A stretch of 36,416 nucleotides of DNA from Deltaproteobacteria bacterium. GTDB taxonomy: Bacteria; Desulfobacterota; Syntrophorhabdia; Syntrophorhabdales; Syntrophorhabdaceae. The stretch covers positions 1 to 36,416 of the forward strand of contig JAKORG010000079.1 in the NCBI GenBank assembly GCA_029777945.1. The letters run 5' to 3'. Both the position numbers and the translations under genes were made by a program. The notes below the pieces were generated by a model, which had not been told where the DNA came from, made no database searches, and was given only the letters and a program-made list of their open reading frames with translations. Below, piece by piece: positions 2,431 to 35,411 of this stretch. Within the stretch, counting starts at the first letter, position 1, and every line of letters starts with the position of its first letter.

Positions 2431-2445
2431 AAAGGGAGGTCTAAA

Positions 2446-4350
2446 ATGGAAGACAAGAGAATTTCTTATCATGAATCTGTTCGCAAAGTATATGAGAGAA
2501 TAAAAAAAGACAATATGGATAATATATGGGATAGATACGAAGCCCAGGGTATGGGTGGCAATCCTGACCAGAGGTGTCCATTCTGTCTGGCAGGTGTGCG
2601 ATGTGATTTATGTTCAAACGGTCCGTGCAGGGCAGATGTGGAGAAAAATAAAAAAGGTGTATGCGGTATAACCGGGGATGGTATGGCCATGAGGATGATG
2701 CTTTTAAGAAATGTTATGGGTGCATCTACTTATCACTATCATACTGAACAGACCATAAAGACACTAAGGGCAGTGGCTGAAGGCAAATCGCCGTTTAAAA
2801 TAAAAGATAAAGATAAACTCATGGGACTTGCCATTCGTTTTAATATACCCGATTTTATGCCTGAAGATGATGTAATTTTAGCCCTGTGTAATCATTTTGA
2901 GGCAGATTTCAATAGAAAGCATGATGAACCAAGTCACATAGTTCTCACCCTTGCACCAAAAGAAAGGATAAAAACATGGAAGGAACTGGGGATTTTCCCA
3001 GGTGGCATATATGGAGAGATGTTGTTTTCTACAAGTTCATGTCTAACAAATGTGGATGGCTATTATAAAAGCCTTGCATTAAAGGCAATGAGGCTTGCAA
3101 TTGCCATGGCATATCAGAGTCAGCTTATAAACGAATACTGCCAGGACATACTTTTTGGTACCCCAAGACCACATAAGATTAGGTGTGACCTCGGGGTTCT
3201 TGACCCTGATTATGTAAATGTGTTGCCAAATGGACACGAACCCTTTCTCGGTTTTGCCATGATAGAGCTTGCAAAAAATCAAAAATGGCAACAGAAGGCA
3301 AGGTCTGTAGGTGCTAAAGGTTTAAGGATTATTGCAAATATAGAGACAGGTCAGGAGATGATCCAGCGATGGGAGACCGACGATGTATTCTTTGGCTTTA
3401 TAGGGAACTGGATTATGCAGGAGGCTGTATTGGCAAGTGGCTGTGTAGACTTATTTGCCTGCGATATGAATTGTTCCATGCCTGTGGATCCAAAATATGC
3501 GGAGAGATACAAATTTAAGCTTATACCAGTGAGTCCACTTGTTGCCTTTGAGGGAATAAAAGATAGGATCGATTATATTCCAGAAGAGGCAGAAAAACAG
3601 GCGGAGAAACTCCTTGAAATGGCAATTGAAAATTTTAAGGAAAGAAGACAAACAGTAGAGCCCGTCACAGGCTTGCCATTAAGGGAGGCATTGGTTGGTT
3701 TTTCTACAGAGAGCATCTTTGGAATTTTAGGTGGCACACTGGAACCTTTATTAAAGGCAATTATAGGGGGGAATATAAAAGGTATTGCAGCAATTGTATC
3801 TTGCACAACATTGAGGGATTCAGGTCAGGACTGTCATACTGTAGCCATTGCAAAAGAGTTAATAAAGAGGGATGTTCTTATACTTTCAATGGGTTGCGGA
3901 AATGCAGCACTTCAGGTGGCAGGGCTTACGAATTTAGAGGCAAAGGAACTTGCAGGCAATAGTTTAAAGGCAGTTTGCGAACTCTTAAAGATTCCTCCTG
4001 TATTGAGTTTTGGCACATGCACAGATACAGGGAGGGTTGCAGATTTAGTTGCAGCCTTTGCCTCATTGCTTGGTGATATTCCCATATGTGAATTGCCTGT
4101 TGTGGCAGTGGCACCGGAATATATGGAACAGAAGGCTACAATAGATGCCATATTTGCCCTCGCCCTTGGTCTATATACATATGTCAACCCTGTGCCTACA
4201 GTAACAGGCGCACCTAATCTCGTAAAGCTTCTTACAGAAGAACTTGAAGGTTTAACAGGTGGAAAGTTAAATGTAGAGAAAGACCCCATAAAGGCAGTGG
4301 ATGGTATAATGGCTCATATTGAGGCAAAAAGAAAGAAACTCGGAATATAA
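2446..4350 (+). CDS. cooS: Divergent anaerobic Ni-type carbon-monoxide dehydrogenase, catalytic subunit
   Basis: The 634-residue protein is a CooS-type CO dehydrogenase, which interconverts CO and CO2. Near the N-terminus, cysteines 44, 47, 53, 56, 61 and 73 form the B/D-cluster region (CxxCx5CxxCx4C, then C73). Compared with Carboxydothermus CODH II recalled from memory, C-cluster ligands are retained at His264, Cys343, Cys453, Cys484 and Cys525, and the catalytic lysine at Lys563. The CC pair carrying ligand Cys295 is replaced by Ile299-Glu300 in ANIETGQEM. The proton-relay His93 position falls on Tyr96, although His97 and His99 are adjacent. One of the two D-cluster cysteines is Arg52. No cooC or cooF is adjacent. 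A strong ribosome site, GGGAGG, precedes the ATG. The family call is secure; CO oxidation activity is not. Confidence 0.9.
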   Translation: MEDKRISYHESVRKVYERIKKDNMDNIWDRYEAQGMGGNPDQRCPFCLAGVRCDLCSNGPCRADVEKNKKGVCGITGDGMAMRMMLLRNVMGASTYHYHTEQTIKTLRAVAEGKSPFKIKDKDKLMGLAIRFNIPDFMPEDDVILALCNHFEADFNRKHDEPSHIVLTLAPKERIKTWKELGIFPGGIYGEMLFSTSSCLTNVDGYYKSLALKAMRLAIAMAYQSQLINEYCQDILFGTPRPHKIRCDLGVLDPDYVNVLPNGHEPFLGFAMIELAKNQKWQQKARSVGAKGLRIIANIETGQEMIQRWETDDVFFGFIGNWIMQEAVLASGCVDLFACDMNCSMPVDPKYAERYKFKLIPVSPLVAFEGIKDRIDYIPEEAEKQAEKLLEMAIENFKERRQTVEPVTGLPLREALVGFSTESIFGILGGTLEPLLKAIIGGNIKGIAAIVSCTTLRDSGQDCHTVAIAKELIKRDVLILSMGCGNAALQVAGLTNLEAKELAGNSLKAVCELLKIPPVLSFGTCTDTGRVADLVAAFASLLGDIPICELPVVAVAPEYMEQKATIDAIFALALGLYTYVNPVPTVTGAPNLVKLLTEELEGLTGGKLNVEKDPIKAVDGIMAHIEAKRKKLGI

Positions 4351-4372: not shown

Positions 4373-5623
4373 ATGGAAGGGGCAGGCAGTGTTGAAAAGA
4401 GGACTATTCACTGGGCATGGATAGTCCTTGCCGTATGTTTTTTTGACCTATACATAAACTACGGTATAAGGCTTGGTTATAGCGTTTTACTTCCAGAAAT
4501 GATAAGGACCATGGGGTTTACAAGAAGGCAGGGTGGGGATATATTCAATGCCTATTTTATAGTGTATATAATTTTTTCGCTATTTACAGGCTATCTTACA
4601 GATCGTTTAGGTGCAAGGAAGGTGATATCTGTCTTCTGTGTTATACTCGGTATTGGAACTGTGCTTATGGGAACTGCAAAAAGCTTTTGGCAGGCATGCA
4701 TCTTTTATGGCATTGTAGGTATGGGTGGTGCTGCCATGTGGACGCCCATCATCACCCTTGTGCAGAGGTGGTTTGCAGTAAGAAAAAAGGGTATGGCTTT
4801 GGGTATTCTATCTACAGGCTTTGGCCTTGGTTTTGCCACAATGGGTAGGTTTTATCCTGCTGTAGTTGCATGGAGAGACTGGCGATACTGCTGGTATATT
4901 CTTGGAGTAGCAGCCCTTTTTATGGTTTTTATAAATGCATTGCTACTTCGAAGCAAACCTGAGGACAAGGGTCTGTCCCCATGGGGTAGTATAGAAGATA
5001 AGCCCCCTCAGCAAGAGGTATCAAAAATGGCGCAAAAGATAAGCCTTTCAGAGATTCTCTCCGTTTCTAATTTCTGGTTTATTGCCATTTCATATTTTCT
5101 CATTGCTGCAGCACTATATCTTTTATTAACCTTTATGGTGGACTATGCAAGATATGAAATAGGGCTTGCCTATGAAAGGGCATCGCTTCTTGCAACGATT
5201 CACGGTTTAGGACAGATCATAGGGGTCCTTACAATACCTATGGCATCTGACTATATAGGCAGGCGCATGACCCTTGTTATCTCCAATGCATGCATAGCCC
5301 TTTGTATATTCAATGTGATTCTTGCCGGTAACAATGTTACATGGCTTTATATCAGTACAGGTTTTCTCGGTGCTTTTTTCGGTGCCACCTTTCCCATGTA
5401 TGGTGCCGCAGGAGGGGATTATTTCAAGAAGGAGATGATGGGAACCGTAATTGGTGCCTTAACGATATTTTACGGTTCAGGTGCTATCCTTGCCAATAGG
5501 GTAGGTGGCCATATTAGGGATATTACAGGTTCGTTCTTTATTCCCTTTATTCTGGCATCAATATCAGCCATTGTAGCATCTATACTTATGGTATTTGTGA
5601 AAAGAAGGATATGGAATACATAA
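4373..5623 (+). CDS. Major facilitator superfamily transporter
   Basis: This is a 416-residue polytopic membrane protein with about twelve hydrophobic segments. The MFS motif A appears twice: TDRLGARKV after helix 2 (near residue 75) and SDYIGRRM in the second half (near residue 295). The arrangement resembles the oxalate/formate and monocarboxylate transporter branch of the superfamily, but the substrate cannot be told from sequence alone. It starts 22 nt after the cooS stop behind an AAGGGGGG ribosome site, so it is probably cotranscribed with cooS. A carboxylate related to C1 or short-chain acid metabolism would fit that context, which is inference. Confidence 0.85.
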   Translation: MEGAGSVEKRTIHWAWIVLAVCFFDLYINYGIRLGYSVLLPEMIRTMGFTRRQGGDIFNAYFIVYIIFSLFTGYLTDRLGARKVISVFCVILGIGTVLMGTAKSFWQACIFYGIVGMGGAAMWTPIITLVQRWFAVRKKGMALGILSTGFGLGFATMGRFYPAVVAWRDWRYCWYILGVAALFMVFINALLLRSKPEDKGLSPWGSIEDKPPQQEVSKMAQKISLSEILSVSNFWFIAISYFLIAAALYLLLTFMVDYARYEIGLAYERASLLATIHGLGQIIGVLTIPMASDYIGRRMTLVISNACIALCIFNVILAGNNVTWLYISTGFLGAFFGATFPMYGAAGGDYFKKEMMGTVIGALTIFYGSGAILANRVGGHIRDITGSFFIPFILASISAIVASILMVFVKRRIWNT

Positions 5624-5800: not shown

Positions 5801-6964
5801 ATGAGTGATGAGACACCTTTGCTCGATGAACTTGAAAAAGGGCCATGGCCGAGTTATGTAACCCAGATAAAGCGTGCGGCAAAAAAGAAAAAGGCCGCAA
5901 AAGACCTGCTTGGTATTCAAGAGCTCTCGTATAAGGACAGGATAACTCACTGGAAGCACGGTGGGATTGTAGGTGTTACAGGATATGGTAGCGGTGTTAT
6001 TGGTAGATACTGCGACCAACCGGAAAAATTTCCAGATGCTGCTCAATTTCATACAATGAGGATTAACCACCCGGCAGGTTGGTTTTACAACACAAAATCA
6101 CTCCGTGAAATCTGTGATACCTGGGAGCAATACGGTAGTGGTCTTACAAATTTTCACGGTTCAACAGGGGACATCATACTCCTTGGAACAACTACAGATA
6201 ACCTGCAGCCATGTTTTGATGCCTTAACAGAAAAAGGCTTTGACTTAGGTGGCTCAGGATCAGCGCTACGGACCATATCAGGTTGTGTGGGTCAGGCAAG
6301 GTGTGAATGGGCAAATTTTGACACCCTAAATCTTGTCTATGATTTGACCATGGAATTTCAGGACGAAATCCACAGACCACGCTGGCCTTATAAATTTAAA
6401 ATTAAGGCATCGGGATGTCCAAATGACTGTGTTGCAGCCATTGCAAGGGCTGATTTCACCATCATTGGGACTTGGAGGGACAGTTTAAGGATTGACCAGG
6501 CTGCTATAAGAAACTATGTGGATAATGGATTTGAAATAAAAACCCTAATTGTAGATAAATGTCCTTCAGGTGCCCTGGAATGGGACGATAAGTCAAAAGA
6601 ATTAAAACTAAATGCAGAGGATTGTGTCCGTTGCATGCACTGCATAAACAAGATGCCAAAGGCAATAAGACCTGGAGTAGATACAGGTGCAACAATCCTT
6701 GTAGGAGGAAAGGCGCCTATTATTAAAGGTGCATATCTATCATGGGTGTTGGTGCCCTTTATCAAGGTAGAGCCGCCCTATGAAGAGATTAAAGGCCTTT
6801 TGAGAAAGATCTGGGATTTCTGGGATGAAAACGGTCGCACAAGGGAGAGGCTTGCAGAGCTCATTGAGCGTGTGGGTTTAAAGAATTTCTTAAAAGAAAT
6901 AGGCGTGCCACCTATGCCTCAAATGGTATATAAACCAAGGGCAAACCCTTATGTGTATTTTTAA
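5801..6964 (+). CDS. dsrA: Dissimilatory sulfite reductase alpha subunit
   Basis: DsrA forms the cytoplasmic A2B2 sulfite reductase with DsrB and reduces sulfite at a coupled sirohaem-[4Fe-4S] centre. The cluster cysteines are Cys162/Cys168 (CVGQARC) and Cys206/Cys210 (CPNDC), preceded by the lysine-rich YKFKIK strand of the sulfite-binding site. An inserted ferredoxin domain is visible with Cys254 and CVRCMHC at 275-281. The N-terminal [14 protein letters not shown] block and the C-terminal NPYVYF are typical. At 387 residues it is shorter than the usual 410-440. The missing parts are a segment near residue 30 and a loop just before the ferredoxin domain; catalytic motifs are intact. An AAGGGGGTGAG ribosome site precedes the ATG. 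It is the first gene of the dsr run. Confidence 0.98.
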
Positions 6965-7012
6965 TGTTAAATTAAACGCATTGAACATATAACAAAATCA
7001 AGGAGGGCAATT

Positions 7013-8077
7013 ATGGGAAGGACAGATATAGGGCCACCGGATTATAAAGATATGCTTCCCCCGGTGATAAAGAAAAATTATGGAAAATGGAAATTTCACG
7101 AGACCATAAGACCCGGGGTTTTAAGGCATGTATCTGAATCAGGAGATGAACTCTACACAGTAAGGGCAGGTTCTCCCAGGCTTTTAAGTATAGATTTTGT
7201 AAGGGACATCTGTGATGTTGCAGATAAATACTGTGATGGTTATTTAAGATTCACAAGTCGTTATAACATCGAGTTTATGACGGATAAAAAGGCAAATGTA
7301 GATGCCTTGATAGAAGAATTAAAAAGGCTCGGTCTCCCTGTGGGAGGGACAGGGAACGCTATATCTAATATTGTCCATACCCAGGGCTGGATACACTGCC
7401 ATAGCGCAGCAACAGATGCATCAGGTCTTGTAAAGGCAATAATGGATGAGCTGTATGATTATTTTACAAGCATGAAACTACCGGCTTATGTAAGAATAGC
7501 CGTGGCATGCTGTATAAACATGTGCGGGGCAGTCCACTGTTCTGATTTGGCAATTGTGGGTGTCCACAGAAAACCCCCAAAGGTAGACCACGAAAAGGTC
7601 CTTGCCCAATGTGAAATACCAACGATTATTCAATCATGTCCTACCGGTGCCATAAGGCGTCATCCTGACCCCAATGTAAAGAGCGTGGTGGTCCGAGAAG
7701 ACCTTTGCATGTATTGCGCCAACTGTTTTACCGTATGCCCTGCTATGCCGCTTGCAGACCCTGAAGGGGATGGCGTTGCCATCTACGCTGGAGGCAAGGT
7801 ATCCAATGCAAGAAAACCACCCATGTTCTCGAGGATGGTAGTCCCTTATCTACCTAACAATCCACCTCGATGGCCTGAGGTTGTTGATATAATCAAGAAG
7901 ATCGTGGAGGTATATGCATCGAATGCGAAAAAATACGAGAGGATGGGTGAATGGATAGAGCGTATTGGCTGGGAAAAATTCTTTAAATTAACGGGCATTC
8001 CTTTTACAGAACAGCATATAGATGATTTTACCCATGCTGTTGAGACTTATAGGACAACGACCCAATTTAAGTGGTAA
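7013..8077 (+). CDS. dsrB: Dissimilatory sulfite reductase beta subunit
   Basis: DsrB carries the catalytically competent sirohaem in the DsrAB reductase. Visible motifs are [14 protein letters not shown] (Cys129), the cluster block [11 protein letters not shown] (166-176), and a ferredoxin domain with Cys209 and [12 protein letters not shown] (232-242). The ending TTTQFKW matches the usual TQFKF. At 354 residues it is somewhat shorter than the usual 360-380, mostly at the N-terminus, where it begins directly at the [15 protein letters not shown] block. It follows dsrA by 48 nt with its own strong ribosome site (AAGGAGGG), as expected for equimolar subunits. Confidence 0.98.
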
Positions 8078-8103
8078 AGGCAATATAAAAAGGGGGTGTA
8101 AGA

Positions 8104-8307
8104 TTGCAAGAAGAGATAACTGAAGAATTAAAAAATAAAATTATTGAATATTTAAAAACAGTTTCAAAGGCAAAGAATAAAGAAGTTGCCCGGGCAATAG
8201 ATGCTGATAAACACATTGTGGATAAGGCAATAGCTGAATTGAGCAAAGAGGGAAAGATAGAGTACATCTACCTCGGTGCATCTTTTATTAAACTAAAGGA
8301 AGATTGA
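8104..8307 (+). CDS. dsrD: DsrD, winged-helix activator of sulfite reductase
   Basis: This 67-residue protein matches DsrD in size, position and its winged-helix pattern (helix KNKIIEYLKTV, helix NKEVARAI, recognition helix, then a strand pair IEYIYLGASFIKL). DsrD is an allosteric activator of DsrAB in sulfate reducers and is used as a marker of the reductive Dsr type. The start is TTG at 8104: an AGGGGGTG ribosome site lies 5 nt before it and no in-frame ATG or GTG occurs nearby. Sequence similarity to Desulfovibrio DsrD is low by eye, so the name rests partly on its place right after dsrB. Confidence 0.85.
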   Translation: MQEEITEELKNKIIEYLKTVSKAKNKEVARAIDADKHIVDKAIAELSKEGKIEYIYLGASFIKLKED

Positions 8308-8338
8308 TTTTATAATGTGTTATGGGGTTTGAACTTAT

Positions 8339-9772
8339 ATGACTGCCCGATTGATGATTGCAGCACCGTCAGGCAGATGCGGAAAAACTACCATAACTAC
8401 AGGGATATGTGCATCTTTAAGAAAAAGGGGTCTTATAGTTCAGCCTTTTAAAAAAGGGCCAGACTATATAGACCCCTCATGGCTTACTGCTGCATCAAAA
8501 AGACCCTGCAGGAATCTCGACCTATTTATGATGAAAAAACAGGCAATTTTAGAAACCTTTCACATGGCATCAGAAGATGCGGATATTGCCATTATAGAGG
8601 CGAACATGGGTTTTTATGATGGCATAAAACCTGACGGGAAAGACAGTCCTGCAAGCCTTGCAAGACTCCTTGATACACCTGTTGTATTTGTAGTTAACTG
8701 TTCCCGCATTACAAGAAGTGTGGCAGCCATAATCCAAGGGTTTTTAGGATTTGAGCCAGACAACTGTATAAAAGGGGTCATTCTGAACAATGTTTCAGGT
8801 AAAAGACATGAAAAAAAACTAACAGACAGCATAAAAAAATATTGCAATATCCCTGTCCTTGGCGTTGTGCCTAAATCTCTCTCGTTAAATATAAAAGAGA
8901 GGCATCTTGGGCTTATCCCTTATGGTGAGGACAAAAAAGGGGAAGAGTTAATCGATGATATGGCCCGATTTTTTGAGCAATACATTGATATGGATGGCAT
9001 ATTGTCCATATCAAAAAGCACAGTGTATAAAAAGGATACTAAACCCTTAATAGATACAAAAAAAAAGATAGAGAGAAAACACAATGTAAAGATCGGCATT
9101 TTCTACGATAGGGCCTTCAGCTTCTATTATCCTGAAAATCTTGAAGCCCTTGAGAAAAACGGTGCTGAACTCGTTTATATTAATTCTATGAAGGATACTG
9201 CACTACCTGATATTGACGGTCTTTACATCGGCGGTGGATTTCCAGAATTATACGGGTCAGAGATCATAAAGAACAGGTCTCTTTTAGGGCATGTAAGGAT
9301 AGCCATTGAAAACGGGATGCCTGTTTTTTGTGAGTGTGCAGGACTTATATATTTATGTGATGGAATAAAAACAGATGAAGGTTTTTTTGAAATGGCAAAA
9401 ATCATACCTTCCGTGGTAGAAAAAAAGAAATTACCACAAGGGCATGGATATATGGACGTTGAGGTAATTACAGATACTCCATTTTTTAAAAAAGGGGCAA
9501 GGATAAAGGGCCATGAATTTCATTATACAAGGTTAATAAATGTTAAAAACCTCCATTATGCACTAAAGGTTTTACGGGGCAATGGTATAGATGGATATTA
9601 CGATGGGATATTGTATAAGAACATGTTTGCGTCTTACATGCATATCCACGCTGCAAGTGTTCCCAATTGGGCAAAAAGATTTGTCCGTATTGCTGAAAAA
9701 TATAAAAACAAAAACTGTAACAGGTATATATATTGGATTAACAAAAAGGGGGTGTATTATAATGCCAGATGA
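8339..9772 (+). CDS. dsrN: DsrN, cobyrinate a,c-diamide synthase family amidase
   Basis: This 477-residue protein has the two-domain CobB/CbiA architecture. The N-terminal ATPase domain contains the P-loop APSGRCGKTT (residues 9-18) and KGPDYIDPSWL. The C-terminal class I glutamine amidotransferase domain contains GGGFPELYG, the nucleophile cysteine in FCECAGLIYL near residue 337, and GHEFHYT. The family transfers amide nitrogen from glutamine to corrin carboxylates. The paralogue in dsr operons, DsrN, is thought to amidate sirohaem to the form found in DsrAB. The context, between dsrD and dsrC, favours the DsrN role over cobalamin synthesis. The ribosome site is weak. Its last 11 nt overlap the next gene. 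Confidence 0.88.
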   Translation: MTARLMIAAPSGRCGKTTITTGICASLRKRGLIVQPFKKGPDYIDPSWLTAASKRPCRNLDLFMMKKQAILETFHMASEDADIAIIEANMGFYDGIKPDGKDSPASLARLLDTPVVFVVNCSRITRSVAAIIQGFLGFEPDNCIKGVILNNVSGKRHEKKLTDSIKKYCNIPVLGVVPKSLSLNIKERHLGLIPYGEDKKGEELIDDMARFFEQYIDMDGILSISKSTVYKKDTKPLIDTKKKIERKHNVKIGIFYDRAFSFYYPENLEALEKNGAELVYINSMKDTALPDIDGLYIGGGFPELYGSEIIKNRSLLGHVRIAIENGMPVFCECAGLIYLCDGIKTDEGFFEMAKIIPSVVEKKKLPQGHGYMDVEVITDTPFFKKGARIKGHEFHYTRLINVKNLHYALKVLRGNGIDGYYDGILYKNMFASYMHIHAASVPNWAKRFVRIAEKYKNKNCNRYIYWINKKGVYYNAR

Positions 9773-9962
9773 ACGGGAGATAGTTCAATGTCCTGTATGC
9801 CATACAGAGATAGAAATAGGCTCTCAGGTGGCAAAACTTTACGGTGCAGTAAGGGCAGCTCCAAGGGCTCAAAGTAATTACGAAGGCAAGGATTATTTTT
9901 TCTGCTGTAAGGCATGTAAAAAAAAGTTTGATGAAGATCCAAAAAAATATATCAAAAAATAG
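9762..9962 (+). CDS. Small YHS/TRASH-like metal-binding protein
   Basis: The 66-residue protein starts at ATG 9762 behind the ribosome site AGGGGGTG; a longer in-frame reading from 9591 lies inside dsrN and has no such site. It has CPVC near residue 10 and YFFCCKACKKKFDEDPKKY at the end, the pattern of YHS or TRASH treble-clef domains that bind metal through cysteines. The central part (KLYGAVRAAPRAQSNYEGK) is longer than in minimal YHS domains. Its gene overlaps dsrN by 11 nt and precedes dsrC by 11 nt, so it is translationally embedded in the dsr operon. Possible roles are metal or sulfur sensing, or delivery to DsrAB or DsrC. No specific function is known to me. Confidence 0.75.
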   Translation: MPDEREIVQCPVCHTEIEIGSQVAKLYGAVRAAPRAQSNYEGKDYFFCCKACKKKFDEDPKKYIKK

Positions 9963-9973
9963 GAGGTTAACTG

Positions 9974-10291
9974 ATGGCAAAGACAACACTCGGAGGAATA
10001 GAAATCGAAATTGATGAAGATGGTTTTATTCAGGAACCTGAAAAATGGAATCAGGCAATAGCAGAGGACCTGGCAAAGGTTGAACAGGCATATCCCATGA
10101 CAGAGGAGCACTGGAAGGTAGTGAACTACTTGAGAGATTATTATCTCAAATATGAGATTGCACCGCCCATAAGGATGCTGGTGAAACAGACAGGTTTTGA
10201 TCTGAAAAAGATATACCAGCTTTTTCCATCAGGACCGGCAAAAGGGGCATGCAAAATTGCAGGGCTGCCAAAACCAACAGGCTGCGTATAA
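9974..10291 (+). CDS. dsrC: DsrC, sulfur-carrier protein
   Basis: DsrC is the physiological co-substrate of DsrAB: sulfite reduction leaves a trisulfide bridging its two C-terminal cysteines, which DsrMKJOP then reduces. This 105-residue protein ends with the diagnostic CX10C arm, Cys93 and Cys104 in the block GACKIAGLPKPTGCV, with both cysteines present. That makes it a true DsrC rather than a TusE homologue, which lacks Cys93. The upstream block EDGFIQEPEKWNQAIAEDLA is also typical. The ribosome site AGGAGG lies 7 nt before the ATG. Having dsrC inside the dsrAB cluster is not the usual arrangement in Desulfovibrio, where it is unlinked. Confidence 0.97.
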   Translation: MAKTTLGGIEIEIDEDGFIQEPEKWNQAIAEDLAKVEQAYPMTEEHWKVVNYLRDYYLKYEIAPPIRMLVKQTGFDLKKIYQLFPSGPAKGACKIAGLPKPTGCV

Positions 10292-10304
10292 TTTTTAAGA
10301 GAAT

Positions 10305-11216
10305 GTGAACACTTTTCTCGCTATCCTTACTTATTTTGCCTATTGCTTTATCATAGGGGCTTATACTGTAAAAATTATTAAATATTTGAAGCTCCCTACC
10401 CATCTCAGGTGGGAGCTCTACCCTGTTATACATGAAGAGAAATACGCTTATGGTGGTTCCTATTTTGAAAAAAAGGAATGGTGGAATGAAGAAAAGCAAA
10501 AGCGTTATGCAAAGGGCATTCTTTATCTTCTTAAGGAATATTTCACACTGGGCGATTATTTGACACGCAATGTGCTCTACTGGTTAGGACTATTCCCATG
10601 GCATATCGGTTTTATCCTCATTATTGCATTTCATATTCTCTGTTTTTTTGGTGCTCTTTTCATGGTACTGGGATTTACCATATCTTCAGGTTCACCAGAC
10701 CTGTGGGGAAGAATTTTATTTTATTCAATTCTGATAACAGGTATAGTGAGTTTTATAACAGGAACTGTAGGAAGCATTTTAATTATAATAAATCGTATTA
10801 TTGATAAGAGTTTAAGAACCTATGCTACACCATTAAATTTTTTAATGTACATCTTTACACTCGTGGTCTTTATTAGTGGTCTTTATTCCTGGTATTTTAT
10901 CGATCCTGACATGAAAGAATACAGAGAGTTCTGGAAGGGACTTATCACATTTCATTTTGTAGGTGTTGAAGTAGGAACAATGGTTCATATAATACTCTTT
11001 GATCTTTTCCTCATATACCTACCATTTACTCGTTCACTTCACTATATCACCCGCTTGTTTGCTTTTTTTCTCATCCGCTGGGATGATGAACCAAATAGAA
11101 AGGGCAGTGAACTTGAAAAAAGGCTTATCAAAAATTTGAACCAGAAGGTAGGCTGGCAAGGACCGCATATTGGCGCTGGAAGAAGCTGGAATGAGCTTGC
11201 AAGATATGATAGGTAA
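10305..11216 (+). CDS. DsrM/TmcC-like membrane cytochrome b subunit (second copy)
   Basis: This 303-residue membrane protein has about five hydrophobic segments (near residues 3-21, 98-123, 138-164, 182-204 and 218-244). Histidines in helices 2 and 5 (WHIGFILIIAFH; VEVGTMVH) could ligate haem b, as in the NarI/DsrM/TmcC family of quinone-reactive subunits. It differs clearly from the canonical DsrM at 13327 and lacks its SPVPF..TTVCGQQKSL block. Its stop is 3 nt before the HdrD-like gene, so the two form a membrane-cytoplasm pair like DsrMK or TmcBC. The start is GTG 10305, as the overlapping ATG at 10303 reads immediately into a stop. It follows dsrC by 13 nt. Confidence 0.8.
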   Translation: MNTFLAILTYFAYCFIIGAYTVKIIKYLKLPTHLRWELYPVIHEEKYAYGGSYFEKKEWWNEEKQKRYAKGILYLLKEYFTLGDYLTRNVLYWLGLFPWHIGFILIIAFHILCFFGALFMVLGFTISSGSPDLWGRILFYSILITGIVSFITGTVGSILIIINRIIDKSLRTYATPLNFLMYIFTLVVFISGLYSWYFIDPDMKEYREFWKGLITFHFVGVEVGTMVHIILFDLFLIYLPFTRSLHYITRLFAFFLIRWDDEPNRKGSELEKRLIKNLNQKVGWQGPHIGAGRSWNELARYDR

Positions 11217-11219
11217 GAT

Positions 11220-12815
11220 ATGAAGATAGAGGATATTAGTAAAAATACTGAACAACTTGTAACAATAGAATCAAAGGACCTCATACCCCTTCCTTATCCT
11301 TATGATGACCCAGCGAATGAACCTTTAATGAAAAGATTAACAGATGATCAGAGAATGCGATACGAGGCATCCCTTGATGGTATAATTGCCATAGGCATAC
11401 CAAAACCATCAAGTAAAGAAGAGGAAGAAGTCTTTGTAAAGAAGTTTCTTTCTGGTCTTGAAAAACTCCTTACCCCGGAAAATAATTGGACCTTCCTCCA
11501 GCCACTTTACCACTCCCTTGAATACTGTGTTAAGTGTCAGATATGTAATGACTCGTGTCCTGCATATCTGGCAAGTGGAAAAAAGGAGATTTATCGGCCT
11601 ACATATAGGGCTGAAGTGCTTCGGAGAATAATAAATAAATATATAAAAAAAAGGAATAAACTCCTCTTAAGACTAACAGGCAGTGATATTGACCTGAACT
11701 GGACTCTTGTAGCAAGACTTGGAGAGCTTGCATATCGATGCACATTATGTAGAAAGTGTGCCCAGGTCTGCCCACTTGGTGTGGATAATGGCCTTATAAG
11801 CCATGAGATAAGGAAGATATTCAGTCAGAAGATGGGGATAGCCCCCAAAGAACTCCATGAACTGGGAACTATGCAACAGTTAAAGGCAGGTTCATCAACA
11901 GGCATTACGCCAAAGGCACTTGGAAATATCATAGAATTTATGGAAGAGGAGATAGAGGAGAAGATAGGAAGGAAGATAAAAATACCTGTAGATAAAGAAG
12001 GAGCCGAGATACTATTGATTCATAATGCAGGGGAGTTTGTATCCTGGCCTGAAAATACAGAGGCTTTCGCCATCATTTTTGACATAGCAGGTATTGACTG
12101 GACATTATCAAGTGATCTTGTGGGCTATGATGCAGTTAATTATGGGGTCTGGTATGATGATATACAGCTTGCACGGATTGCGGTGAAACATGCAGAGATA
12201 GTAAAGGCATTAAAGGTCAAAAAGATAAATGTAGGTGAGTGCGGTCATGCCCATAAGGCAATGATTGTTGTTGCAGACCGCATATTGACAGGGGAACTAA
12301 ATATTCCAAGGGAGAGTGCGCTGCCTATTTTAGCAGACATTGTTTTAAACAACAGGATTAAACTTGACCCGGAGAGAAACAATTTTCCTGTAACCCTTCA
12401 TGATCCGTGCAATATGGTAAGGCTCATGGGCATAGTAGAGCCTCAGAGGCAGATATTGAGAAAGATCTGCCCCCAATTCAGAGAGATGGAGCCCAACGGC
12501 GTTGACAATTATTGCTGCGGTGGTGGAAGCGGATTCGCCATCATGCAATCCATGAATTTCCCGGACTGGAGGAGTGCTGTATCGGGCAGGATGAAGTTAA
12601 AACAGATCCTTGAGGTATTCCATGATGTGATAGGCCCTGATGTAAAAAAGTATGTGTGTGCACCATGCTCTAACTGTAAAGGCCAGATAAGGGATCTTTT
12701 CGCATATTACAATGTATTTGAGAGATGCAACATCTTCTACGGTGGTCTTGTTGAACTTATTGTAAATGCCATGGTGGATATAAAAAAACCTTTTATAGAG
12801 TGGGAGTGGAGATAG
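11220..12815 (+). CDS. DsrK/HdrD/TmcB-like iron-sulfur subunit (second copy)
   Basis: This 531-residue cytoplasmic protein has two 4Fe-4S ferredoxin motifs (CVKCQICNDSC at residues 103-113; CTLCRKCAQVC at 174-184) and two CCG-type halves near the C-terminus. The second half is complete: DPCNMVRLMG, CCGGGSG and CAPCSNC, which can hold the non-cubane cluster that reduces disulfides in heterodisulfide reductase. The canonical DsrK at 14373 has CMCAID in place of CAPCSNC. A likely role is oxidation or reduction of thiol/disulfide substrates, DsrC being the obvious candidate given the gene order. It could equally be a TmcB-type subunit lacking its cytochrome partner. An AGG ribosome site lies 6 nt before the ATG. 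Confidence 0.85.
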   Translation: MKIEDISKNTEQLVTIESKDLIPLPYPYDDPANEPLMKRLTDDQRMRYEASLDGIIAIGIPKPSSKEEEEVFVKKFLSGLEKLLTPENNWTFLQPLYHSLEYCVKCQICNDSCPAYLASGKKEIYRPTYRAEVLRRIINKYIKKRNKLLLRLTGSDIDLNWTLVARLGELAYRCTLCRKCAQVCPLGVDNGLISHEIRKIFSQKMGIAPKELHELGTMQQLKAGSSTGITPKALGNIIEFMEEEIEEKIGRKIKIPVDKEGAEILLIHNAGEFVSWPENTEAFAIIFDIAGIDWTLSSDLVGYDAVNYGVWYDDIQLARIAVKHAEIVKALKVKKINVGECGHAHKAMIVVADRILTGELNIPRESALPILADIVLNNRIKLDPERNNFPVTLHDPCNMVRLMGIVEPQRQILRKICPQFREMEPNGVDNYCCGGGSGFAIMQSMNFPDWRSAVSGRMKLKQILEVFHDVIGPDVKKYVCAPCSNCKGQIRDLFAYYNVFERCNIFYGGLVELIVNAMVDIKKPFIEWEWR

Positions 12816-12816
12816 C

Positions 12817-13326
12817 CTGGAACTGAAAATACTGCTAAAAGAAAACAGAGAAAAAATACTTAATACCTGGTTTGAAATGGTGGTTTCTTTTTATCCAAAG
12901 GAAACGATCGATTTTATAACAAATGAAAAGGACAGGTTTTTAAATCCCGTTGGCAGTATCATCAAAGAAGGCATGGCCATTATATATGATGTTATAGTAG
13001 AAGGAAAGGATAAAGATGGTGCATCATCTGCAATAGAAGGTATAATGAAGATAATGGCCATTGAAGATGTTAAGCCATCCACTGCCACATCCTTTGGGTA
13101 TTTTTTAAAAAGGATTTTGATTGAGAGGTGCACTCCATATGTGAAAGACAGCAAATTTTTAGATGAACTTCATGCCTTAAACAATAGAATAGATGAGATT
13201 ACACTTATGGCATTTGATTTTTATATGGGATGTAGAGAACAAATAAACCAAATCAGGATAAAGGAATTAATGTCTGGAAGGGCAGCGGATACTCATAATT
13301 TTTTAAATTTTAAGGTTAATAGGTAA
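12817..13326 (+). CDS. RsbRD N-terminal domain protein, probable CTG start
   Basis: This protein resembles the RsbT co-antagonist RsbRD N-terminal domain, an all-helical globin-fold sensor module. No STAS domain follows, so it is the sensor part alone. The first ATG (12877) would leave 149 residues and delete the first helix. The frame stays open upstream and encodes LELKILLKENREKILNTWFE, the typical opening of this domain. The best start is therefore CTG 12817, placed 1 nt after the stop of the preceding gene with GGAGA 4 nt before it; this gives 169 residues. Small RsbRD-N genes next to dsrM occur, as I recall, in several sulfate reducers; a redox or gas-sensing role is inference. It abuts dsrM without spacing. 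Confidence 0.8.
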   Translation: MELKILLKENREKILNTWFEMVVSFYPKETIDFITNEKDRFLNPVGSIIKEGMAIIYDVIVEGKDKDGASSAIEGIMKIMAIEDVKPSTATSFGYFLKRILIERCTPYVKDSKFLDELHALNNRIDEITLMAFDFYMGCREQINQIRIKELMSGRAADTHNFLNFKVNR

Positions 13327-14328
13327 ATGAAGATTATATTGCCTTTTTTCACTGTGGTACTGATTGCCTGTCTTGTCTATGGAGGAACAAGATACTTAGA
13401 GGGGCATATCCTTTTTGGGATTATTGTTCCTTATATTTGTTTTGCCCTTGCCATAGTCGGTTTTGTTGTAAAGATTGTAAAATGGGCAGTCTCACCAGTG
13501 CCATTTAATATAACCACAGTGTGCGGACAGCAAAAATCTCTTAATTTTTTAAGACACAGCCCCATTGAAAGCCCCGCGTCAAGATGTGGTGTGTTTTTTA
13601 GGATGCTTTTTGAGGTATTATTTTTCCGTTCCCTCTTAAGAAATGAAAAGGTAGAGCTATACGGAAAAGAAAGAAGACTAATCTACGGAAGTGATAGATA
13701 CCTTTGGATTTTTGCCATATTATTTCACTGGTCAATGCTTATAATTTTATTAAGACACCTGAAGTTATTCCTCGAACCCATACCTTACTGGATAATTATG
13801 CTTCAAAATCTTGATGGCATCTTTCAATCACATATACCACCTGTGTATATAAGTAATGTATTGGTTTCTATTGGCCTGGTCTTTCTTTTTTTAAGGAGGT
13901 TGAAAAGAAGGGTCATGTATATCTCTCTGCCATCAGACTTTTTTGTCCTTTTTTTAATAGGTGGGGTGATTCTTTCAGGTATGCTCTTAAGATATGTGTA
14001 TAGGGCAGATATCCTGCTCGTTAAGGCCTTTTTATTTGGTCTTATATATTTAAACCCTGTTCCGTATACTGGTTTTGGCACCATGTTTTACATACATCTT
14101 TGTTTTATAAGTGTTTTGATTGCATATCTACCTTACAGCAAACTCATGCATATGGCAGGGGTTTTTTTAAGCCCCACAAGGAATTTGAGAAATGACAGTC
14201 GTGCAAGAAGACATATAAATCCATGGGATTATCCTGTAAAGGAACATACATATGAAGAGTGGGAGGAAGAATTTAAAGATGCCTTAAAAGAGGCAGATAT
14301 ACCCCTTGACAGTGAAAACAAAGGATAA
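13327..14328 (+). CDS. dsrM: DsrM, membrane cytochrome b subunit of DsrMKJOP
   Basis: DsrM is the quinone-interacting haem b subunit of the sulfite-reduction membrane complex DsrMKJOP. The 333-residue protein has about six hydrophobic segments, the characteristic block SPVPFNITTVCGQQKSL near residue 56, histidines in transmembrane segments (FHWSMLIILLRH; FYIHLCF), and the cytoplasmic tail LSPTRNLRNDSRARRHINPWDYP. These agree with canonical DsrM. The ATG follows directly on the stop codon of the RsbRD-N gene, so translation is probably coupled. It begins the contiguous dsrMKJOP block. Confidence 0.95.
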   Translation: MKIILPFFTVVLIACLVYGGTRYLEGHILFGIIVPYICFALAIVGFVVKIVKWAVSPVPFNITTVCGQQKSLNFLRHSPIESPASRCGVFFRMLFEVLFFRSLLRNEKVELYGKERRLIYGSDRYLWIFAILFHWSMLIILLRHLKLFLEPIPYWIIMLQNLDGIFQSHIPPVYISNVLVSIGLVFLFLRRLKRRVMYISLPSDFFVLFLIGGVILSGMLLRYVYRADILLVKAFLFGLIYLNPVPYTGFGTMFYIHLCFISVLIAYLPYSKLMHMAGVFLSPTRNLRNDSRARRHINPWDYPVKEHTYEEWEEEFKDALKEADIPLDSENKG

Positions 14329-14372
14329 AAAAAGTATTTTAAGTATGTTACTTGATTTTATGGATGGGTAAA

Positions 14373-15980
14373 ATGGAAAAACCGGATGAGATGAAAAAAG
14401 CCATAGACCTCACTCCAAAAAAAGGGGACTGGATGACCCCTGAGGTGGAATTAAAAAAAGGCACATACTGTTACGGAGCGCCCTTAAAACACCAGAAGTA
14501 CCTTGAGCTTCCAAATCAGAGGGAATGGCAACCCCATGATGTTGACTGGAAGCTACCTGAAAACTGGAAGGATATAATACTGGATGGCATGGCAAAACTT
14601 TTAAAGAAAAACCGCGCCTTTAAACTATTCATGGATATATGTGTTCGTTGCGGTGCCTGTGCAGATAAGTGTCATTTTTTTATAGGCTCAGGGGATCCGA
14701 AAAACATGCCCGTTGTCCGAGCAGAACTTTTACGCTCTGTCTACAGGAGATACTTTACCATTCATGGAAGGATACTGGGAAAACTTGCCGGTGCAAGGGA
14801 CCTAACAGTGGATGTCTTAAAGGAGTGGTTCTATTATTTTTATCAGTGCACAGAGTGCAGAAGATGTTCTGTATTTTGTCCTTATGGTATAGATACCTGC
14901 GAGATTACCATGATGGCAAGGGAGCTATTAAATCTTGTAGGGTGTAACATCCAATGGGTTGTTGAGCCTGCATCCAACTGTTTTAGAACAGGCAACCACT
15001 TAGGGGTGCCTCCCCATGCATTCAAAGAGACACTGGGGTTTGCATTAGATGAGATAAGAGACTTAACAGGTATAAATGTAGAGGCGCCTATAAACAAAAA
15101 GGGTGCAGAAGTCCTTTTTATAGCCCCTTCTGCAGATTACTTTGCAAGCCCCCACTGGTATACCCTGCTCGGTTATCTTATGCTTTTTCACGAGATTGGC
15201 CTTGATTATACATGGAGTGCCTATGCATCAGAGGGAGGTAATTTTGGGCTTTTTCATTCAGCAGAGCTTGCAAAGAGGTTAAATGCCAAGATATATGCAG
15301 AGGCAAAAAGGCTTAAGGTAAAATGGATTTTAGGTGGTGAGTGTGGTCATATGTGGCGGGTTATACATCAATATATGGATACATTCAATGGACCTGCAGA
15401 TTTTCTGGAAGTGCCTGTATCGCCTGTTACAGGCACAAAATTTGAGCATGCCAAATCTACAAAAATGATTCATATAGCAGAATTTACAGCAGATTTAATC
15501 AGACACAACAAACTAAACCTCGATAAATCAAGAAATGATAATTGGAAGATAACATTTCACGACTCCTGTAATCCTGCCAGGAGCATGGGGCTTTTAGAAG
15601 AGCCGAGATACATTATAAAAAATACATGCAATCACTTTTACGAGATGCCAGAAAATACCATAAGGGAAAAGACATTCTGCTGTGGCAGCGGGGCAGGTCT
15701 TGGTGCTGATGAAAACCTTGAGATGAGACTCAAAGGAGGTATGCCAAGAGCAATGGCAGTAAAGTATGTGAAAGAAAAATATGGGGTGAACATGCTTGCG
15801 TGCATGTGTGCCATAGACAAGGCTGCATTGCCACCACTTCTTGATTACTGGGTATCAGGTGTTGATGTTTGTGGTGTCCATGAGCTTGTAGGTAATGCCC
15901 TTGTTATGAAGGGTGAAAAAAAGAGGGAGACAAATTTAAGGGGAGAGCCAATAAAAGGGGATAGTAAGGATACGAAATGA
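14373..15980 (+). CDS. dsrK: DsrK, HdrD-like catalytic iron-sulfur subunit of DsrMKJOP
   Basis: DsrK is the cytoplasmic subunit that reacts with the DsrC trisulfide through a special 4Fe-4S centre. It contains two ferredoxin motifs (CVRCGACADKC and CTECRRCSVFC) and two CCG-related regions (GGECGHMW; FHDSCNPARSMG, CCGSGAGLG, then CMCAIDKAALP). The start is placed at ATG 14373 (535 residues), giving MEKPDEMKKAID; a TTG at 14352 would add seven residues with no clear ribosome site. The stop overlaps the dsrJ start in an ATGA. CMCAID replaces the CxxC of a full CCG motif, in contrast to the paralogue at 11220. Confidence 0.95.
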   Translation: MEKPDEMKKAIDLTPKKGDWMTPEVELKKGTYCYGAPLKHQKYLELPNQREWQPHDVDWKLPENWKDIILDGMAKLLKKNRAFKLFMDICVRCGACADKCHFFIGSGDPKNMPVVRAELLRSVYRRYFTIHGRILGKLAGARDLTVDVLKEWFYYFYQCTECRRCSVFCPYGIDTCEITMMARELLNLVGCNIQWVVEPASNCFRTGNHLGVPPHAFKETLGFALDEIRDLTGINVEAPINKKGAEVLFIAPSADYFASPHWYTLLGYLMLFHEIGLDYTWSAYASEGGNFGLFHSAELAKRLNAKIYAEAKRLKVKWILGGECGHMWRVIHQYMDTFNGPADFLEVPVSPVTGTKFEHAKSTKMIHIAEFTADLIRHNKLNLDKSRNDNWKITFHDSCNPARSMGLLEEPRYIIKNTCNHFYEMPENTIREKTFCCGSGAGLGADENLEMRLKGGMPRAMAVKYVKEKYGVNMLACMCAIDKAALPPLLDYWVSGVDVCGVHELVGNALVMKGEKKRETNLRGEPIKGDSKDTK

Positions 15981-16354
15981 AGAAGATTATATTGGGCCTG
16001 ATTTTGTTTCTCTTAGTTGCCTTTTTACCTCTGGGATATAATATCTACACAGGCAAGAAAGCATATATCCCTGTTATTAAGGCCCCTGAAGATAAGAAAG
16101 AATGTGTTGAAAATGTATTTATTATGAGAAAAAGGCATAATATTGTGCTTGAAAAGTGGAGGGATGCATCGGTTAGACATGGTATTAAAAAATATGTGTC
16201 CTTAAACGGCACTTATAAGATTAGCCTAACAGGAACCTGTCTTGGATGCCATTCTGATAAAACGCAGTTCTGTGACAGGTGCCACGATTATGCAGGGGTT
16301 AAACCCAGATGCTGGGATTGCCATAATATTCCAGATAAGGTTGCAGAAAAATGA
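15977..16354 (+). CDS. dsrJ: DsrJ, periplasmic triheme cytochrome c
   Basis: DsrJ is the triheme c-type cytochrome of DsrMKJOP facing the periplasm. The 125-residue protein has an uncleaved-looking N-terminal hydrophobic anchor (residues 4-20) and three CXXCH haem sites: CLGCH at 88-92, CDRCH at 99-103 and CWDCH at 112-116. An additional cysteine, Cys43, lies upstream of the haem sites; DsrJ is known for one haem with unusual His/Cys ligation, for which Cys43 is a candidate. The start overlaps the dsrK stop and the stop overlaps the dsrO start, both as ATGA. Confidence 0.96.
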   Translation: MKKIILGLILFLLVAFLPLGYNIYTGKKAYIPVIKAPEDKKECVENVFIMRKRHNIVLEKWRDASVRHGIKKYVSLNGTYKISLTGTCLGCHSDKTQFCDRCHDYAGVKPRCWDCHNIPDKVAEK

Positions 16355-17103
16355 ATAGAAGGGATTTTCTTAAAATTACAGGTATTCTTGCTATAGGTGC
16401 TGCATCCCATCAAACAGCAATGATTCTATTGAGCTCAGAGGTAAAAGGAGATCAAGCCAAGAAAAAGAGATGGGCAATGGCAATAAGCTTCAGTGCCTGC
16501 GTAAAAAGGGAAGGGTGCAGGGATTGCATCGATAATTGTCATCTTATCCATAATGTCCCTGAATTTACAGACAATAAAGATAAGATTCAGTGGATATGGT
16601 CATCACATTACGAATCTGTTTTTGGAGAACAGACAAATATGTTTACAAAGGGTATGTTAAAAAACCTCTCTATTTTGTGTTTGTGCAATCACTGTGAAAA
16701 CCCGCCCTGTGTAAAGGTCTGTCCCACAAAGGCAACATGGAAAAATAAAGATGGCATAATCATGATCGATTATCACAGGTGTATAGGTTGTAGATACTGC
16801 ATGGCAGCATGTCCATATGATGCAAGAAGCTTTAACTGGAAAGACCCAAAACCTTTTATAAAAGAGATAAACAGGGATTTTCCTACAAGGGCTAAAGGGG
16901 TTGTAGAGAAGTGCAATTTCTGCGAGGAAAGGATAACCCAGGGCCTTTTACCTGCTTGTGTTGAAGCATGCCCTGAGAAGGCTTTAACATTTGGAGATTT
17001 AAACGACCCTGAAAGCGACATATCGAGGCTGCTTAAAACAAGATTCAGCATACAGAGAAAACCCCATCTCGGCACAGACCCAAAAGTATTTTATCTGTTT
17101 TGA
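16351..17103 (+). CDS. dsrO: DsrO, Tat-exported ferredoxin subunit of DsrMKJOP
   Basis: DsrO is a periplasmic iron-sulfur protein of the HybA/NrfC type that passes electrons between DsrJ and DsrP. The Tat signal NRRDFLKITG is at the extreme N-terminus. Sixteen or more cysteines form four cluster sites: Cys50/56/59/63, Cys110/112/115/120/124, CIGCRYCMAACP (144-154), and CNFC with Cys203/207. The length, 250 residues, is normal. It follows dsrJ with a 4-nt overlap and precedes dsrP by 6 nt. Confidence 0.96.
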   Translation: MNRRDFLKITGILAIGAASHQTAMILLSSEVKGDQAKKKRWAMAISFSACVKREGCRDCIDNCHLIHNVPEFTDNKDKIQWIWSSHYESVFGEQTNMFTKGMLKNLSILCLCNHCENPPCVKVCPTKATWKNKDGIIMIDYHRCIGCRYCMAACPYDARSFNWKDPKPFIKEINRDFPTRAKGVVEKCNFCEERITQGLLPACVEACPEKALTFGDLNDPESDISRLLKTRFSIQRKPHLGTDPKVFYLF

Positions 17104-17109
17104 GGTATT

Positions 17110-18258
17110 ATGATTGAAAAGGCATTTAAGGGAACAATAGGATACTGGCTCTGGTTATGTTTTCTTTCTGCCTTAGCGCTGGCAGGATTTATTTCTTATC
17201 TGAGGCAGCTTGATATAGGCCTTGGCATAACTGGCATGGGAAGGGATGTTTCCTGGGGGCTATATATTGCAAACTTTACTTTTTTTGTCGGTATTGCTGC
17301 ATCGAGTGTTGTAGTTGTGCTACCCTATTACCTCCATGATTACAAAAAATTTGGTGATATAATCATACTTGGTGAATTTTTGGCAGTATCATCTGTTGTC
17401 GTAACGATACTGTTTATTCTCGTTGATTTAGGGGTGCCGTCAAGGGTTTTAAATGTGCTTATTTATCCATCGCCTTCATCCCTTCTTTTTTGGGACATGG
17501 TTGTGCTTACTGGCTATCTCATTCTAAATATAGTTATCGGTTGGTGGTCTTTTGACGCCAAGGTGAAAGAGATAGAACCTCCAATATGGATTAAACCCCT
17601 TGTATATATCTCCATACCGTGGGCAATAAGCATCCATACTGTTACAGCATTTATCTATTCAGGTCTTTCTGCAAAGCCCCTCTGGCATACAGCCCTTTTG
17701 GCCCCGCGATTTCTTGCCTCTGCCTTTGCCTCAGGGCCTTCTGTTCTTATTGTTTTGTGTTTTATTATAAGGCGATGGTTTGGGTTTAACATCGAAAGGG
17801 ATGTTATAAAAAAGATAGCCATTATTGTTACCTATGCACTATCGATACATATATTTTTTATGCTTGCCGAGATATATACGGTATTATATAGTGATCTACC
17901 TTCCCACAAAAGCCATTTTGAATTTCTTTTTTTAGGTGTGCCTGGGAATAGATTTCTTATACCCTGGACATGGGGGTCTACTGTAGGGGCTATAATTGCA
18001 TTTGTTTTATTTTTAATCTCCCATAAAAAAAATGACAGCCTTGTTATATTTGCCAGTATTATCACTGTGGTTTCTATCTGGTTAGAAAAGGGTTTTTGCC
18101 TTATTATCGGTGGATTTGTCCCAACACCATTTGAAGAATATCCCAAATATGTTCCAACGATTTTTGAGTTGTTTATAACCTTGGGGATTTATGCAGCAGG
18201 GGGATTAATACTTACAATTTTATATAAAACAGTGGTTTCTTTTAGACAATCTAAATAA
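17110..18258 (+). CDS. dsrP: DsrP, NrfD-family integral membrane subunit
   Basis: DsrP is the NrfD-like membrane subunit of DsrMKJOP, which exchanges electrons with the quinone pool together with DsrO. The 382-residue protein is almost entirely hydrophobic, with about ten membrane segments. Family features include GMGRDVSWGLYIANFTFFVGIAASSVV-type sequence around residue 42, and ISIPWAISIHTVTAFIYS near residue 175 with a conserved histidine. It is the last gene of the dsr run. Its stop is 6 nt from the stop of the convergent histidine kinase and I see no clear terminator between them. Confidence 0.95.
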   Translation: MIEKAFKGTIGYWLWLCFLSALALAGFISYLRQLDIGLGITGMGRDVSWGLYIANFTFFVGIAASSVVVVLPYYLHDYKKFGDIIILGEFLAVSSVVVTILFILVDLGVPSRVLNVLIYPSPSSLLFWDMVVLTGYLILNIVIGWWSFDAKVKEIEPPIWIKPLVYISIPWAISIHTVTAFIYSGLSAKPLWHTALLAPRFLASAFASGPSVLIVLCFIIRRWFGFNIERDVIKKIAIIVTYALSIHIFFMLAEIYTVLYSDLPSHKSHFEFLFLGVPGNRFLIPWTWGSTVGAIIAFVLFLISHKKNDSLVIFASIITVVSIWLEKGFCLIIGGFVPTPFEEYPKYVPTIFELFITLGIYAAGGLILTILYKTVVSFRQSK

Positions 18259-35346: not shown

Positions 35347-35411
35347 GTCAAAAACTATACAATATTTTAGAATACTCCTCAACCCTATTAAAATCAAAAG
35401 GTGGCTAAAAT

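Follow-up and report, generated by a model that had tools for sequence, protein, structure and literature searches.

A Syntrophorhabdaceae gene resembling CO dehydrogenase very probably encodes a CooS-V-type protein of structural group D-1

CooS-V of Carboxydothermus hydrogenoformans is a homologue of CO dehydrogenase (CODH) for which high-resolution structures, EPR data and activity tests have been published (PMC9311411). The protein carries a [4Fe-3S-nO] hybrid cluster without nickel, and its Cys41 binds a bridging [2Fe-2S] cluster (PMC9311411). Both CO oxidation and CO2 reduction are absent, NO reduction was not detected, and hydroxylamine reductase activity is very low, with a kcat/KM of 20 per M per s (PMC9311411). 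CooS-V combines low turnover with a large redox rearrangement of its cluster and possesses a redox-gated substrate channel; its authors proposed that it is a reductase and viewed the replacement of Cys295 by Glu as a shared derived character of its subclade (PMC9311411). The C295E variant of CODH-II loses both nickel and CO oxidation (PMC9311411; PMC6344411).

In PMC6344411, structural group D-1 is defined by a type III D-cluster (CxxC-x5-C), Glu in place of the first C-cluster cysteine, Tyr in place of the acid-base His, a retained Lys and, as in hybrid cluster protein (HCP), a Glu two residues ahead of that Lys. The active-site sets of D-1 and HCP are reported there as identical, and a genetic study of M. 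acetivorans is cited as suggesting some role of D-1 in CO oxidation. For clade D, a 2026 survey identified no clear pattern of operons (PMC13056359). For HCP, an hcp-frdX operon is known (PMC1274295).

The window analyzed here is a stretch of 36,416 nucleotides from a Syntrophorhabdaceae bacterium whose genome comprises 2.4 Mb in 102 contigs and whose nearest named relatives are Syntrophorhabdales MAGs. The features discussed below are as follows; "relatives" are the 80 loci described later.

2433..2441, + strand: Shine-Dalgarno-like GGGAGG 5′ of the ATG start (sequence)
2446..4350, + strand: cooS-V-type gene of 634 aa (structural group D-1, clade D CODH homologue), very probable (sequence, alignment, tree, fold match)
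2575..2586, + strand: D-cluster Cys44/Cys47, aligned with CooS-V Cys38/Cys41 and NvCODH Cys50/Cys53 (80/80 relatives)
2602..2664, + strand: B-cluster Cys53, Cys56, Cys61 and Cys73, aligned with CooS-V Cys47/50/55/68 (80/80 relatives)
2731..2733, + strand: Tyr96 at the CODH proton-relay His site (80/80 relatives; also Tyr in CooS-V and host HCP)
3235..3237, + strand: His264, predicted cluster ligand, equivalent to CooS-V His259 (80/80 relatives)
3343..3345, + strand: Glu300 at the C-cluster Cys295 site, equivalent to CooS-V Glu295 (80/80 relatives; PMC9311411)
3469..3474, + strand: Asn342-Cys343, equivalent to CooS-V Asn337-Cys338 (80/80 relatives)
3802..3804, + strand: Cys453, equivalent to CooS-V Cys449 (80/80 relatives)
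3895..3897, + strand: Cys484, equivalent to CooS-V Cys480 (80/80 relatives)
4018..4020, + strand: Cys525, equivalent to CooS-V Cys521, the persulfide cysteine (80/80 relatives; PMC9311411)
4126..4134, + strand: Glu561-x-Lys563, HCP-type second Glu ligand (equivalent to CooS-V Glu556) and conserved Lys (80/80 relatives)
4373..5623, + strand: MFS transporter, monocarboxylate/oxalate-formate antiporter-like, 22 bp 3′ of the D-1 gene

The translated gene was aligned with CooS-V, CODH-IV and NvCODH (as they appear in the alignments of the PDB search), the canonical CODH and the HCP of the host, and the 80 relatives. All residues named in the first-pass annotation (Arg52, Tyr96, His97, His99, His264, Ile299-Glu300, Cys339, Cys343, Cys453, Cys484, Cys525 and Lys563) were found at the positions given there, in the translation and in the alignment. 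Against the solved CODHs, Ile299-Glu300 occupies the Cys294-Cys295 columns and Tyr96 the column of the relay His (His93), both as had been proposed. The D-cluster had been described as having lost one cysteine to Arg52 while gaining an extra CxxC. Both features are present, with Cys44 in the first D-cluster cysteine column and Arg52 in the second, but the loss is offset by the "extra" cysteine, Cys47, which is the equivalent of CooS-V Cys41.

Compared to the definition of group D-1, the protein shows every signature item: a type III D-cluster (C44-x2-C47-x5-C53), Glu300 at the position of the first C-cluster cysteine (Cys295), Tyr96 at that of the acid-base His, Lys563, and Glu561 two residues before it. 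The column of Glu561 also holds Glu in the host HCP, and Ser or His in true CODHs. The canonical Ni,Fe-CODH set of one His and five Cys is incomplete, with Glu300 at the Cys295 equivalent, and the canonical acid-base His93 is absent, with Tyr96 in its place. The predicted cluster ligands are all identical to those of CooS-V. The earlier view that the gene belongs to a group of the family with altered cluster motifs was correct, as was that of a broken Ni-Fe C-cluster motif. The group is not uncharacterized, as had been supposed, since D-1 was defined in PMC6344411 and the structures, EPR and activity tests of CooS-V were reported in PMC9311411.

Database, tree and fold comparisons pointed to the same assignment. 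The top PDB match was CooS-V (7b7q; E=1.7e-196, 657 bits), followed among CODHs by that of Thermococcus sp. AM4 (385 bits). Over the alignment, the window protein is 50.0% identical to CooS-V; its identity is 33-34% with true CODHs and about 21% with the host HCP. Its score against TIGR01702 (CODH) was 721.7 versus a cut-off of 478, and its score against TIGR01703 (hybrid cluster protein family) was 26.8 bits, below the cut-off of 360.8. In an IQ-TREE analysis of 48 rows, 31 D-1 rows including CooS-V and the window protein fell together on one side of a branch (support 99/98), apart from CODHs having Cys295, and all 200 bootstrap trees (100%) recovered the split; this tree has long branches to single PDB rows and, with no deliberate sampling of clades B, C, D-2 to D-4 and G, tests D-1 against canonical CODHs only. 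An AlphaFold2 model built from the sequences of the window and the loci (mean pLDDT 85.5, pTM 0.89, with low confidence at residues 42-60, the D-/B-cluster cysteine motif) matched CooS-V best (7b9a and 7b7q; E 1.7e-62 and 4.0e-61, TM 0.93-0.95), and true CODHs ranked after it (E 2.3e-48 and worse). Collectively, these results make it very probable that the product of 2446-4350 is a CooS-V-type protein of clade D, structural group D-1, and not a CODH. The CooS-V-type branch is known and widespread, and the finding, which is real, is explained by published work. As TIGR01702 scores far above its cut-off, standard models would annotate the gene as a CO dehydrogenase, and such an annotation would wrongly assign CO oxidation to it.

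Conservation was assessed in 80 relative loci from GTDB genomes (70-86% identity), which are close relatives by design because they were retrieved with peptide patterns from the query. C44, C47, R52, C53, C56, C61, C73, Y96, H99, H264, E300, N342, C343, C453, C484, C525, E561 and K563 are invariant in 80/80, and this pattern is not due to chance. When 297 genomes of the phylum were searched separately, further members were found at 67-71% and 51-53% identity, and they carry the same block. Below the 51-53% members the identity values show a gap down to about 36%, and the proteins examined under ~36% all carry the canonical set of Cys-Cys, His, Gln, and Ser or His. Between the D-1 members and the canonical CODHs of the host and phylum, the ligand sites switch together as one set. 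Arg52 is replaced by Ser in both 51-53% members and in CooS-V.

The first-pass annotation had suggested that either Glu300 or the nearby Cys339 could substitute for the lost C-cluster ligand. The proposal holds for Glu300, which is kept in all 80 relatives, and fails for Cys339, which is rejected as a replacement ligand since its column varies (Cys in 56/80, Ala in 23/80 and Ser in 1/80 relatives, and Met in CooS-V). A Cys295 equivalent at a shifted position is also ruled out, since the column never departs from Glu and Glu300 is unambiguously matched with CooS-V Glu295.

Compared to CooS-V (PDB 7b7q, 7b9a; WP_011342982), the window protein shares the cluster-binding positions, the Tyr at the relay site, the type III D-cluster, the second Glu two residues before the Lys, the length and the fold. 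It differs in half of its residues (50% identity), including Arg52 versus Ser46 and Cys339 versus Met334, and its gene is directly followed by the MFS gene. Canonical CODHs (CODH-II, CODH-IV, NvCODH and the host CODH on contig C67) share with it the overall fold, the B-cluster and the equivalents of His264, Cys343, Cys453, Cys484, Cys525 and Lys563, whereas Glu300 in place of Cys295, Tyr96 in place of His, Asn342 in place of Gln, Glu561, 33-34% identity and the lack of nearby maturation genes set the window gene apart. The class I HCP of the host (contig C37) matches the active-site residue types of the window protein (His, Glu, Cys, Cys, Cys, Glu, Lys, Tyr) at most aligned columns, in a distant alignment whose columns at Glu300 and Cys343 are unstable. 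This HCP differs from the window protein in its length of 542 aa and its N-terminal cysteine motif, and lies far off in the tree.

The window gene, the CODH gene on C67 and the HCP gene on C37 are the three Prismane-family genes of the host genome. The CODH gene on C67 sits in the operon acsB-CODH-acsD-folD-MinD/CooC-like ATPase-acsV; with this separate canonical CODH in a CODH/ACS operon, the CO chemistry of the host is assigned to C67. The hcp locus of C37 (L084:3172-6382) consists of a divergent Crp/Fnr regulator, an operator, hcp and a gene for a ferredoxin-domain protein. Its operator, TTGACTTAAGTCAA at 3928-3941 of L084, 5′ of hcp, matches the core of the delta-proteobacterial HcpR operator exactly (PMC1274295), and this part of L084 looks like a complete HcpR-hcp-frdX locus. 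A motif search found no HcpR operator 5′ of the window gene, and HcpR control of this gene in the manner of the host hcp is ruled out for want of an upstream operator. HcpR motif scores upstream of 79 D-1 genes resemble those of shuffled sequence, with the exception of locus L063. This locus, from Desulfobacterales, has an exact HcpR-type operator, TTGACCTAAGTCAA, 136 bp 5′ of its D-1 gene, a single case that could be due to chance.

The ferredoxin family that is tied to HCP also adjoins D-1 genes in other organisms. Full-length homologues of the hcp-linked, FrdX-like ferredoxin lie near the D-1 gene in 20/80 loci, always on the same strand and usually adjoining it or one gene off, either upstream or downstream. 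These loci (L051, L050, L065, L045, L034, L024, L059, L062, L037 and L020 among them) come from both bacteria and archaea: Dehalococcoidia/Chloroflexi, WOR-3, Methanofastidiosia, Thermoplasmata, Methanophagales, Lokiarchaeota and others. Among 46 genomes of the host's order, the ferredoxin is directly 3′ of hcp in 31 and near no D-1 gene, that of the window included. In the host itself, the hcp-linked ferredoxin has one full-length match, adjoining hcp, and the next best match is a short ferredoxin domain. Together with the known hcp-frdX operon, these neighborhoods suggest, by association, that the electron donor of HCP also serves D-1 proteins. The surveys of the family, in the text available, make no mention of a link between ferredoxin and D-1.

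The MFS gene is likely to be on the same transcript as the window D-1 gene. Of the 24 genomes of the order with a D-1 gene, 16 have the MFS gene and 8 lack it, and in 14 it directly follows the D-1 gene; a further 13 genomes of the order carry the MFS gene and no D-1 gene. One of the two non-adjacent cases, G004, is broken by a contig end; in L009, which is probably this locus, an MFS gene begins there. The arrangement is not shared by relatives outside the Syntrophorhabdales group. Ferredoxin and transporter neighbors provide testable partners for the natural role of CooS-V-type proteins.

By homology with CooS-V, the window protein would be a homodimeric CODH-fold protein with a [4Fe-4S] B-cluster in each subunit, a [2Fe-2S] D-cluster common to the dimer and bound by Cys44 and Cys47, and, where a CODH has its Ni-Fe C-cluster, an Fe-S-O hybrid cluster free of nickel. 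The predicted ligands of the hybrid cluster are His264, Glu300, Cys343, Cys453, Cys484, Cys525 (as a persulfide) and Glu561, and the protein would be expected to lack CO oxidation. Electrons from ferredoxin may pass through the D-cluster and the B-cluster to the hybrid cluster, which in its reduced form could reduce a hydroxylamine-, NO- or peroxide-type oxidant or a similar small molecule and would undergo an HCP-like redox rearrangement during turnover. The cluster type and substrate class are extrapolated from a single homologue at 50% identity. The earlier proposal of a different reaction can be upheld in general terms. On balance we lean toward a stress reductase that protects from nitrosative or oxidative stress; the window gene itself has neither a ferredoxin neighbor nor an HcpR operator, which makes its link to stress an indirect one.

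Retention of five of the six C-cluster ligands and of Lys563, and the genetic hints from M. acetivorans D-1 (cited in PMC6344411), would suit a modified yet functional Ni,Fe-CODH in which Glu300 fills the role of Cys295, nickel is bound and CO is slowly oxidized. We consider this extremely improbable: CooS-V, with the same ligand set, has neither nickel nor CO activity (PMC9311411), C295E abolishes both in CODH-II (PMC9311411; PMC6344411), every relative has Tyr at the site of the proton-relay His, no CooC, CooJ, CooT or HypAB gene adjoins the window gene, and the host already has a canonical CODH. The low turnover and large redox rearrangement of CooS-V (PMC9311411), and Rrf2-family regulators adjoining the D-1 gene in five loci of candidate division WOR-3, are consistent with a redox or stress sensor of little catalysis, whose cluster would morph with redox state and signal. 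The protein has no signaling domain, most loci have no conserved regulator partner, and CooS-V has a redox-gated substrate channel, which points to a reductase (PMC9311411); a sensor is very unlikely.

The MFS protein, whose gene lies 22 bp downstream and is adjacent in 14/24 of the order's D-1 genomes, is similar to monocarboxylate and oxalate/formate carriers, the D-1/MFS pair precedes a dsr sulfite-reduction cluster in the window, and CooS-V is poor at hydroxylamine reduction (PMC9311411). These observations would fit a non-HCP reaction in which an unrelated, possibly organic or sulfur-oxyanion substrate is imported through the MFS protein and reduced. Against this, 13 genomes of the order have the MFS gene without D-1 and 8 have D-1 without the MFS gene, relatives outside this group do not have the MFS gene in common with it, and the dsr neighborhood is not shared; we regard this explanation as unlikely. 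With the stress reductase as the preferred reading, it is conceivable, if rather doubtful, that window-type D-1 proteins, which are 70-86% identical across bacteria and archaea and 50% identical to CooS-V, catalyze a reduction new to hybrid-cluster enzymes, fed by FrdX-type ferredoxin and, in Syntrophorhabdales, tied to an anion imported by the MFS protein.

Several other genes of these loci were observed. Upstream of the window gene (709-2354) are a DUF362 protein (− strand) and a short MsrP-like molybdopterin protein (+ strand), and the same pair precedes D-1 in L006 and L007. In candidate division WOR-3, the Rrf2-family regulator is directly 5′ of the D-1 gene (L020, L023, L028, L037 and L062). 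The dsr cluster at 5801-18258 contains dsrA, dsrB, a cobB/dsrN-like gene, dsrC, two DsrM-like and two DsrK-like genes, a DsrO-like ferredoxin and a DsrP/NrfD-like gene; the dsrMK arrangement is apparently duplicated. A functional tie of the D-1 gene to this cluster is rejected, as the neighborhoods of the relatives do not share the cluster. A SelB elongation factor is encoded at 33439-35397; the organism thus probably uses selenocysteine, and selenoproteins of the host may be truncated in standard translations.
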